Source: Patescibacteria group bacterium
GTDB taxonomy: Bacteria; Patescibacteriota; Microgenomatia; UBA8517
DNA length: 64,000 nt
Assembly (NCBI GenBank): GCA_035549555.1
Contig: DASZQR010000010.1
Coordinates: 620,001 to 684,000 of the forward strand
Direction of reading: 5' to 3'
Shown here: positions 12,770-59,193 of the stretch, in pieces
How positions within the stretch are numbered: position 1 is the stretch's first letter
Layout of the letters: each line of letters begins with the position of its first letter
Made by a program: the position numbers and the translations under genes
Notes under the pieces: generated by a model
Seen by the model: only the letters and a program-made list of their open reading frames with translations
Database searches by the model: none
What the model was told of the DNA's origin: nothing

Positions 12770-15615
12770 CAAAACATTTTGAACTCACAAAATTCACAAA
12801 GCATACTTCCACTACATTTAAACTCTGATTTCTCGATTTCTTTTTTTATTCTTAAAATCTCTTCTTTTGCTTTTATCAAATCGCTTTTTGTTCTCACTGT
12901 TGTAATTTTTTTTTGGTTCTCAAAATAGTACAAAGATAATTTAACCTTTTCTGGTTTTTTCTTAAACAAATCCTGTGCAGCAAGCGCATAAATAGTTAAT
13001 TGCAAATTGCGATCTATCTCTTTTTGAGTTGGGACATTCATACCTGTTTTATAGTCCCAGATTTCAATAGTTCCATCAGGCAATTTATCAACACGATCAA
13101 TTCTCCCTCCAACTTTCAAATCTTTGCTAATTGGTATAACAAAATCTTGTTCCAAAAATGTTGGCAATTTATTTTTATCAAATTGTAATTTGTAAAAATC
13201 TTTTAGATATTTTTTCCCTTTATCAAAAAATTCTTGGTTCTGTTTTTTATCCAAAAACCCTTCATGTATCCAGTTTTTCTTAAAAAGTTTAAGTAAATCT
13301 TTTTCAGCATTTTTTTTGCTTTCATAGAAATCACGAAGCGTATTGTGAATACTTGTTCCAAAGCTTGCTGCAGCAATTGGCTGTGTTGGAATTTTTAAAA
13401 TATATTTTAATTTAAAATGAAGTGGACAAATCTCAAAAGTTTCAATTTGCGAATAAGACAAATAGTTAATTTTTAGCCTCGCATTATTCTCATCTTTTTT
13501 GTTTTCCGCAATTTCATTTTTGTTTGCAAAACTTAAAAAACTCAGTTGTTCTATTTTTGCGTTCTGCTTTACCGATGCGTCAGCATCGAGAGCTGATTTG
13601 CCCAGCGATTCGAATATAAAGGGTGACAACTTTTTTTCTCTTTTTGCCTCCCCGTAAAAATTGGCTGCGCTAAAATAAAGTTTATCTTTTGCACGTGTCA
13701 TTCCCACATAAAAAAGCCTTCTCTCTTCTTGTTGGTGAAAATCTCCAGTTGGTAAAACTTCTTTTATGAGTGCATCAGGAATTGGAATCTGCTCGCGTCG
13801 CTCAATTGTTGGAAATCTTTGTGCCACCAAGTTAACTAAAAACACAACAGGAAATTCTAGTCCTTTAGAAGAATGCACCGTTAAAATATTTACAACGTTT
13901 ATTTCATTCCAATCGCTGTCAGCGGCAAGCGGTGATTCCCCTACATCCATTGCAAGATTTATATAATCAACAACATCAAAAACACCTGTACTTCCTGGAT
14001 GATCAACTTCATAAGTTTTTATTTTATCAAAAAATTTAGAAATATTATTTGCTCTCTTTGCAGCTTCAGCATTTTCTGGGTTTAATAAATCATTAAGTAA
14101 TTTTGTCTCCTCCAAAAAATAATACAAAATTTGTCCCGCACTTTCTTTATTAACTAACCCCAAATGTTTGTGGACCATCTCAACAATTTTTTTAATTTTT
14201 TCTTTAGAGTCAATGCTTATGTTTATTTCACCTGCTTTTTCAGCTGCTTCAAAATAACTTAAGTTTTGCCTTCTTGCAAAATTACTAATCTTAGCCAAAT
14301 CTCTTGAGTTAACACCAAACACTGATAAAGAAAAAATCCGAAACGCAGCCGTACTGTTATCAAAATCATAAAGAACTTGAAGATAAGAAATTAAATCAAC
14401 TATTTCACTTTGCCGGAAAAGTTTTCCAGGTCCTAAAAATTGATAAGGAATTCCTTGTCTCTGTAATGCTCTAATGAATGGTTCTGCGTGATTATTCGCT
14501 CGCACCAAAATCGCAAAATCTCGATATTCATATCGATCCTGAGGGAGTTTTACGAGTCGAAGGATTTCTTTAGCAACCATTTCAGCTTCATTTTCAACCC
14601 GTCCTGTGTGAATAAATTCTATTTTCTCTCCATCTTTTTTGTTTGAAATTAATTTTTTGTTAACATTCTCAATTACTTCCAATCTATCTGGATTATTGTG
14701 TTGTATAAGTTCATATGCTCTATCCAATATCTCTTGTGTCGATCGATAGTTTTGAGTAAGAGTGACAACTTTTGTCTTAGGAAAATTTTTTCTAAATTGA
14801 ATAATATTACTTATCGCCGCTCCCCGAAATCGATAAACGCTTTGATCATCATCACCCACTACTGTTATATTCTGTGTTTTGTTTTGTTTTGCCAAAATGA
14901 GCGCCAGCTCATTTTGAGAGAAATTCGTATCCTGAAATTCATCAATCAAAATATATTTAAATTGGCGTTTGTATTCTTTCAAAACATTTGGCCTGTCACG
15001 AAAAAGTTTTATAGTTTTTGTAATCAAATCTCCAAAATCCATAAAACCATTTGCAATTTTTAATTCCTCATATGTGCGATATGCATTGGCTAGTTCCAAC
15101 CATTTTTTGTCCTCTTGTTTCCTTGCCCATTTTAAATATTCATCAGTTTTAATATCTTCATCTTGAAGTCTGGAAAAATGTTGTATCATCCCATCAATAA
15201 ATTTATAAGGATTTCCAAGCGGTCGATAATAACTTAATTTAAATTTAAACAAATTTTGGCGAATCAACTGCACAGTCTCGCCCGTTGTCATCAATTTAAA
15301 TCTTGGATCCATTCCAATCTGTAGCGCTTCCCTTCTTAAGATTCTCTCGCAAAATGCATGGAAAGTAAGAATCCACATATTGGTATATCCATATGGGAGT
15401 GCAATATCAATTCTCTCTTCCATTTCTCGAGCCGCCTTTTCTGTAAAGGTAAGTGCAAGTATCTCTTCGGGTTTTGCCAATTTTTTTTCAATTAAAAATT
15501 TAACTCGTTCAGTAATAACAGTAGTTTTCCCAGTTCCAGCTCCAGCAATTACAAGTAAGGGACCATTTTTATGTTTTATCGCCTGAAGTTGTTGTTTATT
15601 GAGAGTTTTCTCCAC
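12751..15615 (-). CDS. UvrD-type helicase fused to RecB/AddB-like Fe-S nuclease
   Basis: 954 residues, GTG start at 15615. The N-terminal two thirds is a superfamily 1 helicase: Walker A AGAGTGKT (24-31), TFTEKAAREM, LIDEFQDT, GDDDQSVYRFRGA, TVHSSKGLEFPVVF, YVGMTRAKD. The C-terminal about 230 residues form a PD-(D/E)XK RecB-family nuclease: SYSQIETFEIC, GGRIDRVD and EIWDYKTG (about 835-860). Cysteines flank this domain (one in FEIC, then C-x2-C-x5-C at the end), matching the AddB-type 4Fe-4S staple. It likely resects or repairs double-strand breaks as a single-chain AddAB-like enzyme. TACAAT lies six bases before the GTG. Two small palindromic insertions lie in frame (14536-14565; 13573-13588). 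Confidence 0.92.
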   Translation of the reverse strand: MEKTLNKQQLQAIKHKNGPLLVIAGAGTGKTTVITERVKFLIEKKLAKPEEILALTFTEKAAREMEERIDIALPYGYTNMWILTFHAFCERILRREALQIGMDPRFKLMTTGETVQLIRQNLFKFKLSYYRPLGNPYKFIDGMIQHFSRLQDEDIKTDEYLKWARKQEDKKWLELANAYRTYEELKIANGFMDFGDLITKTIKLFRDRPNVLKEYKRQFKYILIDEFQDTNFSQNELALILAKQNKTQNITVVGDDDQSVYRFRGAAISNIIQFRKNFPKTKVVTLTQNYRSTQEILDRAYELIQHNNPDRLEVIENVNKKLISNKKDGEKIEFIHTGRVENEAEMVAKEILRLVKLPQDRYEYRDFAILVRANNHAEPFIRALQRQGIPYQFLGPGKLFRQSEIVDLISYLQVLYDFDNSTAAFRIFSLSVFGVNSRDLAKISNFARRQNLSYFEAAEKAGEINISIDSKEKIKKIVEMVHKHLGLVNKESAGQILYYFLEETKLLNDLLNPENAEAAKRANNISKFFDKIKTYEVDHPGSTGVFDVVDYINLAMDVGESPLAADSDWNEINVVNILTVHSSKGLEFPVVFLVNLVAQRFPTIERREQIPIPDALIKEVLPTGDFHQQEERRLFYVGMTRAKDKLYFSAANFYGEAKREKKLSPFIFESLGKSALDADASVKQNAKIEQLSFLSFANKNEIAENKKDENNARLKINYLSYSQIETFEICPLHFKLKYILKIPTQPIAAASFGTSIHNTLRDFYESKKNAEKDLLKLFKKNWIHEGFLDKKQNQEFFDKGKKYLKDFYKLQFDKNKLPTFLEQDFVIPISKDLKVGGRIDRVDKLPDGTIEIWDYKTGMNVPTQKEIDRNLQLTIYALAAQDLFKKKPEKVKLSLYYFENQKKITTVRTKSDLIKAKEEILRIKKEIEKSEFKCSGSMLCEFCEFKMFCQADLE
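13573..13588. repeat. Short perfect hairpin inside the helicase-nuclease linker
   Basis: CGATGC, loop GTCA, GCATCG. It lies in the non-conserved linker between helicase and nuclease and is read through in frame. Confidence 0.45.
14536..14565. repeat. Dispersed imperfect palindrome, copy 2 (inside the helicase-nuclease gene)
   Basis: A 30-base element differing from the copy at 11359-11388 at one position. It is read on the minus strand as ILRLVKLPQD, about residues 351-360 of the host protein. Confidence 0.75.
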
Positions 15616-15634
15616 GAAGCCATTGTATCACTAG

Positions 15635-16144
15635 TTATTTAGTAACTTCATAATGAAGTTGTATTCCATTTTTTCCTACTTTTTTTGTTCCTATTAACTT
15701 CAAATTTAAGTTCATATCGGACTCTGCAAAGAGATTAATTCCTTTTCCAAAAATAAATGGTTCCACATCTAAAAATATTTCATCAATTTTTCCCGATTCC
15801 AAAGCAACTTTATTCATTTTTCCTCCACCTGCAATAAGCATGTTTTCAAACTTTTTTTCCTGAGAAACTTTAATTGCTTCATTAAAACTTTTTACAAAAA
15901 TTGTATTTTTATTTCTTGGTTTGTCACCAGAAGTTGTTAAAACAACAATAAACGGATTTCTCAAATTATCAAAACCATTATCCTCAATAGTTAAATCATA
16001 AGTAGTTTTGCCAATTACTAAATTTCCAATTTCAATTACTTTGTTTTTATAACTTTCAAATTCATCATCACTCCATGGAGTGTCATGATCAGCTTTCGCA
16101 ATCATTCCGTTTGCAGAAATAGCCATATATAAAATTATTTTCAT
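15635..16144 (-). CDS. RibD C-terminal / dihydrofolate-reductase-fold protein
   Basis: 169 residues. The order of motifs fits the RibD_C family: N-terminal IILYMAISANGMIA, a GNLVIGKTTYD segment, and LIAGGGKMN (NADPH-binding Gly-rich loop), followed by DEIFLDVEPFIFGKGINLF. Members reduce pteridine- or ribitylamino-pyrimidine-like substrates with NADPH. The neighbourhood lacks riboflavin or folate genes, so the substrate is open. TACAAT lies six bases upstream of the ATG. The start region is back to back with a candidate non-coding RNA promoter on the other strand. Confidence 0.82.
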   Translation of the reverse strand: MKIILYMAISANGMIAKADHDTPWSDDEFESYKNKVIEIGNLVIGKTTYDLTIEDNGFDNLRNPFIVVLTTSGDKPRNKNTIFVKSFNEAIKVSQEKKFENMLIAGGGKMNKVALESGKIDEIFLDVEPFIFGKGINLFAESDMNLNLKLIGTKKVGKNGIQLHYEVTK

Positions 16145-16164
16145 AAACCAATTGTATCACGCTG

Positions 16165-16323
16165 TATAATTATCAAAGTAAGCCCATAAATTATGGAAGA
16201 ATTTGTAATTTTTCTTTAAATAATAAAATCCATAATTTGAATTGGAAGGAGATTAATTGTCAGCCTCTCATTAAAAAGTCCGAAGAGTAAGATAAATTCG
16301 AACCGGTACTCCAATTCCTTACT
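16165..16323 (+). ncRNA. Candidate structured RNA with a nested three-way junction
   Basis: The intergenic stretch between the ribD-like and rmuC genes has three nested, abutting inverted repeats. P1 pairs AGTAAG (16177-16182) with CTTACT (16318-16323). P2 pairs AAATTATGGA (16188-16197) with TCCATAATTT (16229-16238). P3 pairs GAATTGGA (16239-16246) with TCCAATTC (16310-16317). P2 directly adjoins P3, and P3 directly adjoins the 3' side of P1. TATAAT at 16165-16170 predicts transcription starting at about 16177, the first base of P1. The orientation is opposite to both neighbours. No known RNA family is recognised; tRNA, SRP RNA and tmRNA signatures are absent. Confidence 0.45.
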
Positions 16324-26935: not shown

Positions 26936-27007
26936 GGCCAGATGGCGAAGTGGAAACGCTGCGGTCTGCAAAACCGCCATGCGCGGGTTCGATTCCCGCT
27001 CTGGCCT
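26936..27007 (+). tRNA. tRNA-Cys (GCA)
   Basis: 72 bases. Acceptor stem GGCCAGA / TCTGGCC, anticodon stem GCGGT / ACCGC with loop CTGCAAA (anticodon GCA), T arm GCGGG TTCGATT CCCGC, and discriminator U, as expected for cysteine. The CCA end is not encoded. The last base coincides with the last base of the convergent dprA stop codon. Confidence 0.97.
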
Positions 27008-57990: not shown

Positions 57991-58119
57991 TTTAAAAAAC
58001 TATGCCTTACTTTAACTTTACTCTGTGAAGCAGTTTAAGCAACCATTATAGCATTTTCACGCACAAAACACTCCTTGTTTTTAAAGAATGAAAGTTTAAT
58101 ATGAAAATTATCTTTGTGT

Positions 58120-58200
58120 TTAAGGAAGTAGGGTGTAATTCCCTCGCAGTGCCGCTACCGTATAGTCGGAAAACTAACAAGGGTTTAATTCCGAGCAGAT
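58120..58200 (+). promoter_or_regulatory. Cobalamin-riboswitch-like leader
   Basis: Upstream of the Zn-ribbon gene: AAGGAA then AGGGTGTAATTCCCT (GGTG-AATTCC core), GCAGTGCCGCTACCGTA (the GC-x-GT-x-CCGC-AC-GTA segment) and AGTCGGAA. In order these match the conserved core of cobalamin riboswitches in a compact, arm-deleted form like the AdoCbl variants. TCGGAA can pair with TTCCGA just before the ATG and could act as an expression platform. The downstream gene has no known B12 link, so the call is tentative. Confidence 0.45.
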
Positions 58201-59193
58201 ATGGTAGATCGTCAAGAAAAAATAAATTCTCAATTTGACTTCACAGAAACAAAAAAAGTATTTGATACTGCAATCTATAAAAAATATTCTTTAAAAAAAC
58301 GCAGCTGGGTTATTGCCCACGATCTTGCCGGCCTTGTCATTGAAGCAGGAGACAGAAACTTAGAAGAAAGAATTAATCCTTGGTATATTGCTATCACTCA
58401 AGAAGGTAAAATTATTAATCTAACCTCTCGCGAAGAAGTAGCTGTCAATTTTGGTAACAACAATGAATTATCATCTGCCGAGACTGCAGGCGCAATAGAT
58501 TTTTATTATCAAAAAGCTAAGCAAGCAAAAGAAAATGAATTTATTATTTCTTTTAGTCCTTCAGGAGGTAATTCTCCCTATAAAGAATCAAGAATTAATA
58601 TTGCTAAAGTAAGACATCTTTTGGGTATGAAAGTGCTGGAGTGTTACGGAATCCCTTCGAAATTGTCTCCCCAGGATTTATTATTACTTGCTGATAAATT
58701 ATTAATTAAAGAAGGTAAAGATTTGATTTTTAATCCGGATGATTTGCGCCAAGCTGCCTTTTTAACCTCCAATTTAGATTTTTTAGATCTTGATTCGAAA
58801 GCGTTAGAAGAAATAAAAAAAGGCGCCCCAAGAAAAATTAAAAGTAGGGCAGTATGGGATGCCTTGCCAATTGCAAAGCAAATGAGTATTGAATTGGAAT
58901 TTGCAGTTCACGAAAGAGATTATATCCGCTCCGGGGCGGCAGCAGAAAGGTTAATGCAGGAAAAAGGCTGGAAAATAAACACTTATGCTTGCCCAGGTTC
59001 GCTAAATCAGGAGCTTGAGTTTCGCTTTGGAAATTATGTCATGGACGGCATGGGCAATTTTAGACAAGCAAATTTAGGCGAGAAAAAAGCCAAATACGTC
59101 AAAGAATGCCCATATTGTCACAAAGTTATTGAAAAAAAGATTGAGCCAGGGTATCAATGTTCCTGTGGCCAGGTCTTTGAAGGTGTATGTTAA
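58201..59193 (+). CDS. Unknown protein with C-terminal zinc ribbon
   Basis: 330 residues, soluble. The C-terminal CPYCHKVIEKK ... CSCGQVF forms a four-Cys zinc ribbon (C-x2-C ... C-x-C). The body contains SFSPSGGNSPYKESRINI, the helical SRAVWDALPIAKQMSIELEF, and RSGAAAERLMQEKGW. There is no membrane segment or signal. It follows the riboswitch-like leader, lies between PrgI and VirB6-like genes on the opposite strand, and converges with the next gene. It may be a cytosolic partner of the secretion system. No family is recognised. Confidence 0.65.
   Translation: MVDRQEKINSQFDFTETKKVFDTAIYKKYSLKKRSWVIAHDLAGLVIEAGDRNLEERINPWYIAITQEGKIINLTSREEVAVNFGNNNELSSAETAGAIDFYYQKAKQAKENEFIISFSPSGGNSPYKESRINIAKVRHLLGMKVLECYGIPSKLSPQDLLLLADKLLIKEGKDLIFNPDDLRQAAFLTSNLDFLDLDSKALEEIKKGAPRKIKSRAVWDALPIAKQMSIELEFAVHERDYIRSGAAAERLMQEKGWKINTYACPGSLNQELEFRFGNYVMDGMGNFRQANLGEKKAKYVKECPYCHKVIEKKIEPGYQCSCGQVFEGVC

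Follow-up and report, generated by a model that had tools for sequence, protein, structure and literature searches.

A candidate small RNA gene with two stacked three-way junctions in a Patescibacteria genome and in one distant relative of the same class

A short intergenic region in the genome of a Patescibacteria group bacterium (assembly GCA_035549555.1, contig DASZQR010000010.1) probably contains an independent gene for a folded small RNA of about 147 nt, which has its own promoter on the plus strand and would function as a trans-acting accessory RNA with the conserved junction of two hairpins, P3a and P3b, as its working core. The DNA analyzed here, called the window, is the stretch of 64,000 nt from position 620,001 to 684,000 of the plus strand of this contig. 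The existence of the fold, and of a family outside Rfam, is well supported. With high probability we are dealing with a real new RNA family that is of a known general kind and has a very narrow known distribution. A preliminary description of the window had proposed an undescribed structured RNA at this place, and the proposal is supported by the lack of an Rfam match and by a relative in which paired letters of P1, P2, P3 and one more stem have changed together. The features of the window copy are collected in Table 1.

Table 1. Features of the RNA element in the window (positions of the window; two-sided changes are those in the relative from genome G305).
Feature	Position	Strand	Details and basis
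Predicted -10 box, TATAAT	16165-16170	+	start predicted 7 nt further on, at the first base of P1; sequence and the relative's equivalent
Structured RNA	16177-16323	+	about 147 nt; MFE fold and CM R1 relative in G305
P1, 5' strand, AGTAAG	16177-16182	+	pairs with 16318-16323 (6 bp); MFE fold; changed pairs in the relative
P1, 3' strand, CTTACT	16318-16323	+	MFE fold; relative
P2, 5' strand, AAATTATGGA	16188-16197	+	pairs with 16229-16238 (10/10); two-sided changes
P2, 3' strand, TCCATAATTT	16229-16238	+	10/10 paired
Possible hairpin P2a	16198-16215	+	AGAA 16198-16201 with UUCU 16212-16215; GGAG/CUCC in the relative
Conserved one-sided bulge between P2a and P2, UUAAAYAAUnnnA	16216-16228	+	two-copy alignment
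P3, 5' strand, GAATTGGA	16239-16246	+	pairs with 16310-16317 (8/8); two-sided change
P3, 3' strand, TCCAATTC	16310-16317	+	8/8 paired
Hairpin P3a	16247-16271	+	16247-16252 with 16266-16271; fold of the relative; two-sided changes
UCAGCCUC, part of P3a	16260-16267	+	identical in the relative; alignment
AAAAAGUCCGA, linker and 5' side of P3b	16273-16283	+	identical in the relative; alignment
Hairpin P3b	16278-16309	+	GUCCG 16278-16282 with CGGuAC 16304-16309, bulged U; folds and alignment
CGGUACUCCA	16304-16313	+	identical in the relative; alignment

The MFE fold of the plus strand is exactly the plan of P1, P2 and P3 (-26.8 kcal/mol, z -2.1, 4 of 200 shuffles equally good). In the preliminary description, these stems of 6, 10 and 8 bp nested without a gap around a single three-way junction. 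The nesting holds, as do the abutment of P2 on P3 and that of P3 on the 3' strand of P1, but five nucleotides (16183-16187) part the 5' strands of P1 and P2. The junction of the three stems stands as well, but since P3 opens into P3a and P3b, the refined fold consists of two stacked three-way junctions, the second lying within P3. Of 100,000 sequences drawn from a first-order Markov model at matching composition and length, 14 showed P2 next to P3 and none the full nest, for a pattern that was picked after the fact. P3a of the window copy contains one G.A mismatch and its loop ends in UCAGCC. A further hairpin, P2a, was seen by eye in the alignment with loop lengths differing between the two copies and is suggestive only.

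We built a covariance model (CM R1) with the window copy as its only sequence and searched 374 genomes of the class with it. It found one true relative, G305:C49:35516-35647, which is 132 nt long, spans the whole model and scores 47.0 bits (E 9e-9 per genome in these 374). Its genome, G305 (MAG casp150-mb.307), belongs to another family of the same class and is distantly related to the window bacterium. A sequence-only model scores the relative at 32.6 bits, so that structure adds about 14 bits. The two copies have the stretches UUAAAYAAU, UCAGCCUC, AAAAAGUCCGA and CGGUACUCCA in common, and the rest of the two sequences differs.

In the alignment made with the covariance model, 93% of the cells are paired and seven pairs have both partners changed: one each in P1 and P3, two in P3a and three in P2. 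Sliding the partners by one to three columns leaves only zero to two such pairs. In P1, a U-A pair has become C-G and a G-C pair G-U. The strength of the helices in the relative was examined as summed helix stacking, with the identical letters fixed and the relative's other letters permuted, and gave p ~2e-4 on a sequence-only MAFFT alignment and 2.4e-3 on the CM-fitted alignment. Simply counting the pairs kept, a cruder measure, gave p 0.005 with the CM-fitted alignment; with the MAFFT alignment p was 0.11, but there P2 is one base out of register. Folded alone with two flanking bases per side, the relative adopts the same plan (-44.9, z -1.9); trimmed to 132 nt, it has a competing fold. Covariation in relatives had been named beforehand as a check for P1 to P3, and it extends to P3a. 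With two members (n=2), the covariation is persuasive, short of formal proof. The stem of P3b is invariant, and its support is thus conservation and folding, not covariation; its loop is 21 nt long in one copy and 7 nt in the other.

Five G-U pairs of the relative would be A.C on the opposite strand, which assigns the RNA to the plus strand; the minus strand folds at chance level (z 0.1). The preliminary description had placed the transcription start on the first base of P1, which lies seven bases behind the -10 box, and the relative bears this out with a sigma-70-type promoter (TTGACG-16-TATAAT, 11/12) that is placed alike, its start falling on P1. In the window copy, no -35 box reaches the consensus in the scan, and the promoter there consists of a good -10 box only. 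A U8 tract (TATTTTTTTT) follows P1 in the relative, and a U-tract lies about 9 nt past P1 in the window. Judged by such signals only, the RNA would be transcribed from its own promoter.

The preliminary description had suggested the intergenic regions between ribD and rmuC of related genomes as the place to look for homologues. This did not hold, since the relative lies elsewhere and the element is not retained there in related genomes: in one of them (G030), rmuC and ribD_C are direct neighbors and leave no space for the RNA, and downstream of rmuC the gene order is not conserved in 30 genomes. The window genome has a single copy, between genes for RibD_C (PF01872) and RmuC (PF02646), both on the minus strand. 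The neighbors in G305 are a gene for a 377-aa protein without Pfam match and a 69-aa gene adjoining sufD. The flanking genes thus differ between the two genomes, which argues for an independent RNA gene, and no flanking genes common to both loci were found within the window itself. A homologous gene block in the same order occurs at 596-616 kb of contig C10 in the window genome (G000), which is 20 kb from the RNA, and at 14-62 kb of contig C49 in G305, where it encloses the RNA; it is a weak hint of an old common neighborhood of the two copies. Upstream of the RNA in G305 there are a RhuM-family gene (PF13310; L219 7048-7578, plus strand) and a MarR-like gene, in a stretch past suf that the congener G387 does not share. 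At the other locus, the string TGATACAAT occurs on the minus strand at 16152-16157 and 15615-15635 of the window, just 5' of the start codons of ribD_C and a uvrD-like helicase gene. This placement suggests candidate extended -10 promoters and leaderless mRNAs for the two genes.

In both genomes, the 3' end of the RNA lies only 3-13 nt from the stop codon of a convergent gene (rmuC in the window, the 69-aa gene in G305), as would be expected of a cis-acting element, that is, a bidirectional terminator or a 3'-end structure shared with the abutting gene. We regard this explanation as improbable: the conserved sequence and structure go far beyond what a terminator needs, the convergent genes are different ones in the two genomes, and both the chance-level fold of the minus strand and the G-U pairs point to an RNA of the plus strand.

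That the region is a short protein-coding gene is strongly disfavored and the least likely of the alternatives. One plus-strand frame is open in both copies over part of the element and partly alike in its reading, but it is stopped in the window copy and has no ATG or GTG there, and the substitutions, by codon position 7, 9 and 9, show no bias to the third position. The relative also has a 42-codon frame that overlaps the RNA (L051 1533-1650, plus strand, with a GTG start after GGAGGAGAAG), which is not open in the window copy.

Most of the RNA's invariant sequence belongs to P3a, P3b and the stretch between them; a second patch, UUAAAYAAU, is located in the one-sided bulge of P2. Invariant unpaired stretches cluster at the P3a/P3b junction, as they do in known ribozymes and aptamers, and this junction could be the catalytic or aptamer core of a ribozyme or ligand-binding RNA. 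Such a function is decidedly improbable, however, given that there is no downstream gene on the plus strand to control, that none of the known ribozymes or riboswitches in Rfam matches, and that the conserved letters are not limited to loops (identity between the copies is 66% at paired and 61% at unpaired positions). For the preferred independent RNA gene we propose the following organization. The RNA would be transcribed on the plus strand from its own promoter and end near the end of P1. P1 would close the three-way junction with P2 and P3, and P3 would open into the second junction with P3a and P3b. P1, P2 and P3 would be the scaffold of a stable accessory RNA that acts in trans, and the P3a/P3b junction would bind a partner, most likely a protein.

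Further members were sought widely. With the model built from both sequences, none was found in the class sample, in 380 genomes of the phylum or closer to G305, where 37 relatives and 88 members of its order, two congeners among them, were covered. About 85,000 genomes were scanned for the pattern; of the 94 places obtained, 80 were scored with the model, and the only one to score was the G305 copy itself (L082). Phages and plasmids gave no matches or short AT-rich ones, and all places in viral contigs scored as noise. The next-best place that the two-sequence model gave in the class sample (G078, 24 bits) was rejected as lying antisense inside a 427-aa coding ORF. DNA-similarity matches in the own genome and the order were likewise discarded, being AT-rich chance matches within the P2 loop. 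Such a rare and patchy occurrence marks the RNA as accessory, either gained by transfer or often lost. Its absence from congeners could in part stem from incomplete MAGs and from the restricted first stage of the genome search, by which strongly diverged members could be missed.

The same distribution, patchy in distant families and absent from congeners, would also fit a guide-like or RNP RNA of a defense system or mobile element, with the gene of its protein in another part of the genome. The G305 copy sits where the gene order beside suf breaks down in comparison with the congener G387, whose region beyond sufD differs, and the RhuM gene is about 2 kb away. We nevertheless hold this explanation to be unlikely, because no CRISPR-like array was found in 124 kb of the window's contig or on the relative's contig (80 kb), the ORFs near either copy include no recognized reverse transcriptase or cas gene, and no copy occurs in the phages, plasmids or viral contigs searched. 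There is also only a small chance that Patescibacteria have a new class of horizontally moving RNA machines (guide-like, ribozyme or RNP core), with this RNA as its founding member and the invariant P3a/P3b junction as its active center.

A stable RNA acting in trans, as we prefer to read the element, may be compared with the known families. No family of Rfam 15 comes near its gathering threshold for either copy, permissive thresholds included; a match here had been named in advance as a refuting result. The earlier statement that the element is no tRNA or tmRNA proved right, as neither ARAGORN nor an Rfam model matches it: the only tRNA that ARAGORN reports in the window is a tRNA-Cys at 26936, and the tmRNA of the genome is encoded at another place (C10:695158-695571). 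The 6S RNA has a long closing stem, a central bubble and a terminal stem, an architecture different from that found here, and Rfam gives no match to it. Retron msr-msd RNAs contain two hairpin domains within an outer inverted repeat. The present RNA also has an outer inverted repeat around two hairpin domains, but no reverse transcriptase gene was recognized beside either copy, among ORFs within about 3 kb (window) or 9 kb (G305) inspected by eye and in part with Pfam. An assignment to CRISPR tracrRNAs or scoutRNAs finds no array within the same 124 kb and 80 kb of contig sequence. The pRNA of phage phi29 (Rfam Phage_pRNA) is about 120-170 nt long, with paired ends and a central three-way junction. 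The present RNA resembles it in size range, paired ends and central three-way junction, but has no match to this Rfam family, lies among chromosomal housekeeping genes rather than in a phage, and has no recognized packaging genes nearby. The short string AAAGUCCG recalls conserved region I of bacterial RNase P RNA; the present RNA, however, is well under half the size of that RNA, has no Rfam match and contains no other of its conserved regions.

That the fold covaries in a relative found at another locus points to an independent structured ncRNA. The element is closest to the orphan structured bacterial ncRNAs obtained from comparative genomics (for example PMC2864571, PMC8632094), to which it is alike in a fold conserved through compensatory changes and in its stand-alone location. 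It differs from them in being absent from Rfam 15, and its members so far number only two, from a single class. No description of the present RNA was found in the literature. A search for work on non-coding RNAs of the Candidate Phyla Radiation likewise found nothing relevant, and very little appears to have been published on them. Standard tools annotate only the universal ncRNAs in these bacteria. Here, a single sequence led to a distinct RNA family, characterized by a promoter, a conserved core and a defined fold, and a second lineage confirmed it. This indicates that undescribed RNA genes are present in short intergenic regions of reduced Patescibacteria genomes. The analysis provides a covariance model as well as specific residues to test.

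Elsewhere in the window, at 58111-58183 on the plus strand, there is a candidate AdoCbl-II (cobalamin) riboswitch with an Rfam score of 40.6 bits (gathering threshold 36.5). It is located about 20 bases 5' of an ORF of 330 aa (58201-59193) and would be unexpected for a reduced genome.
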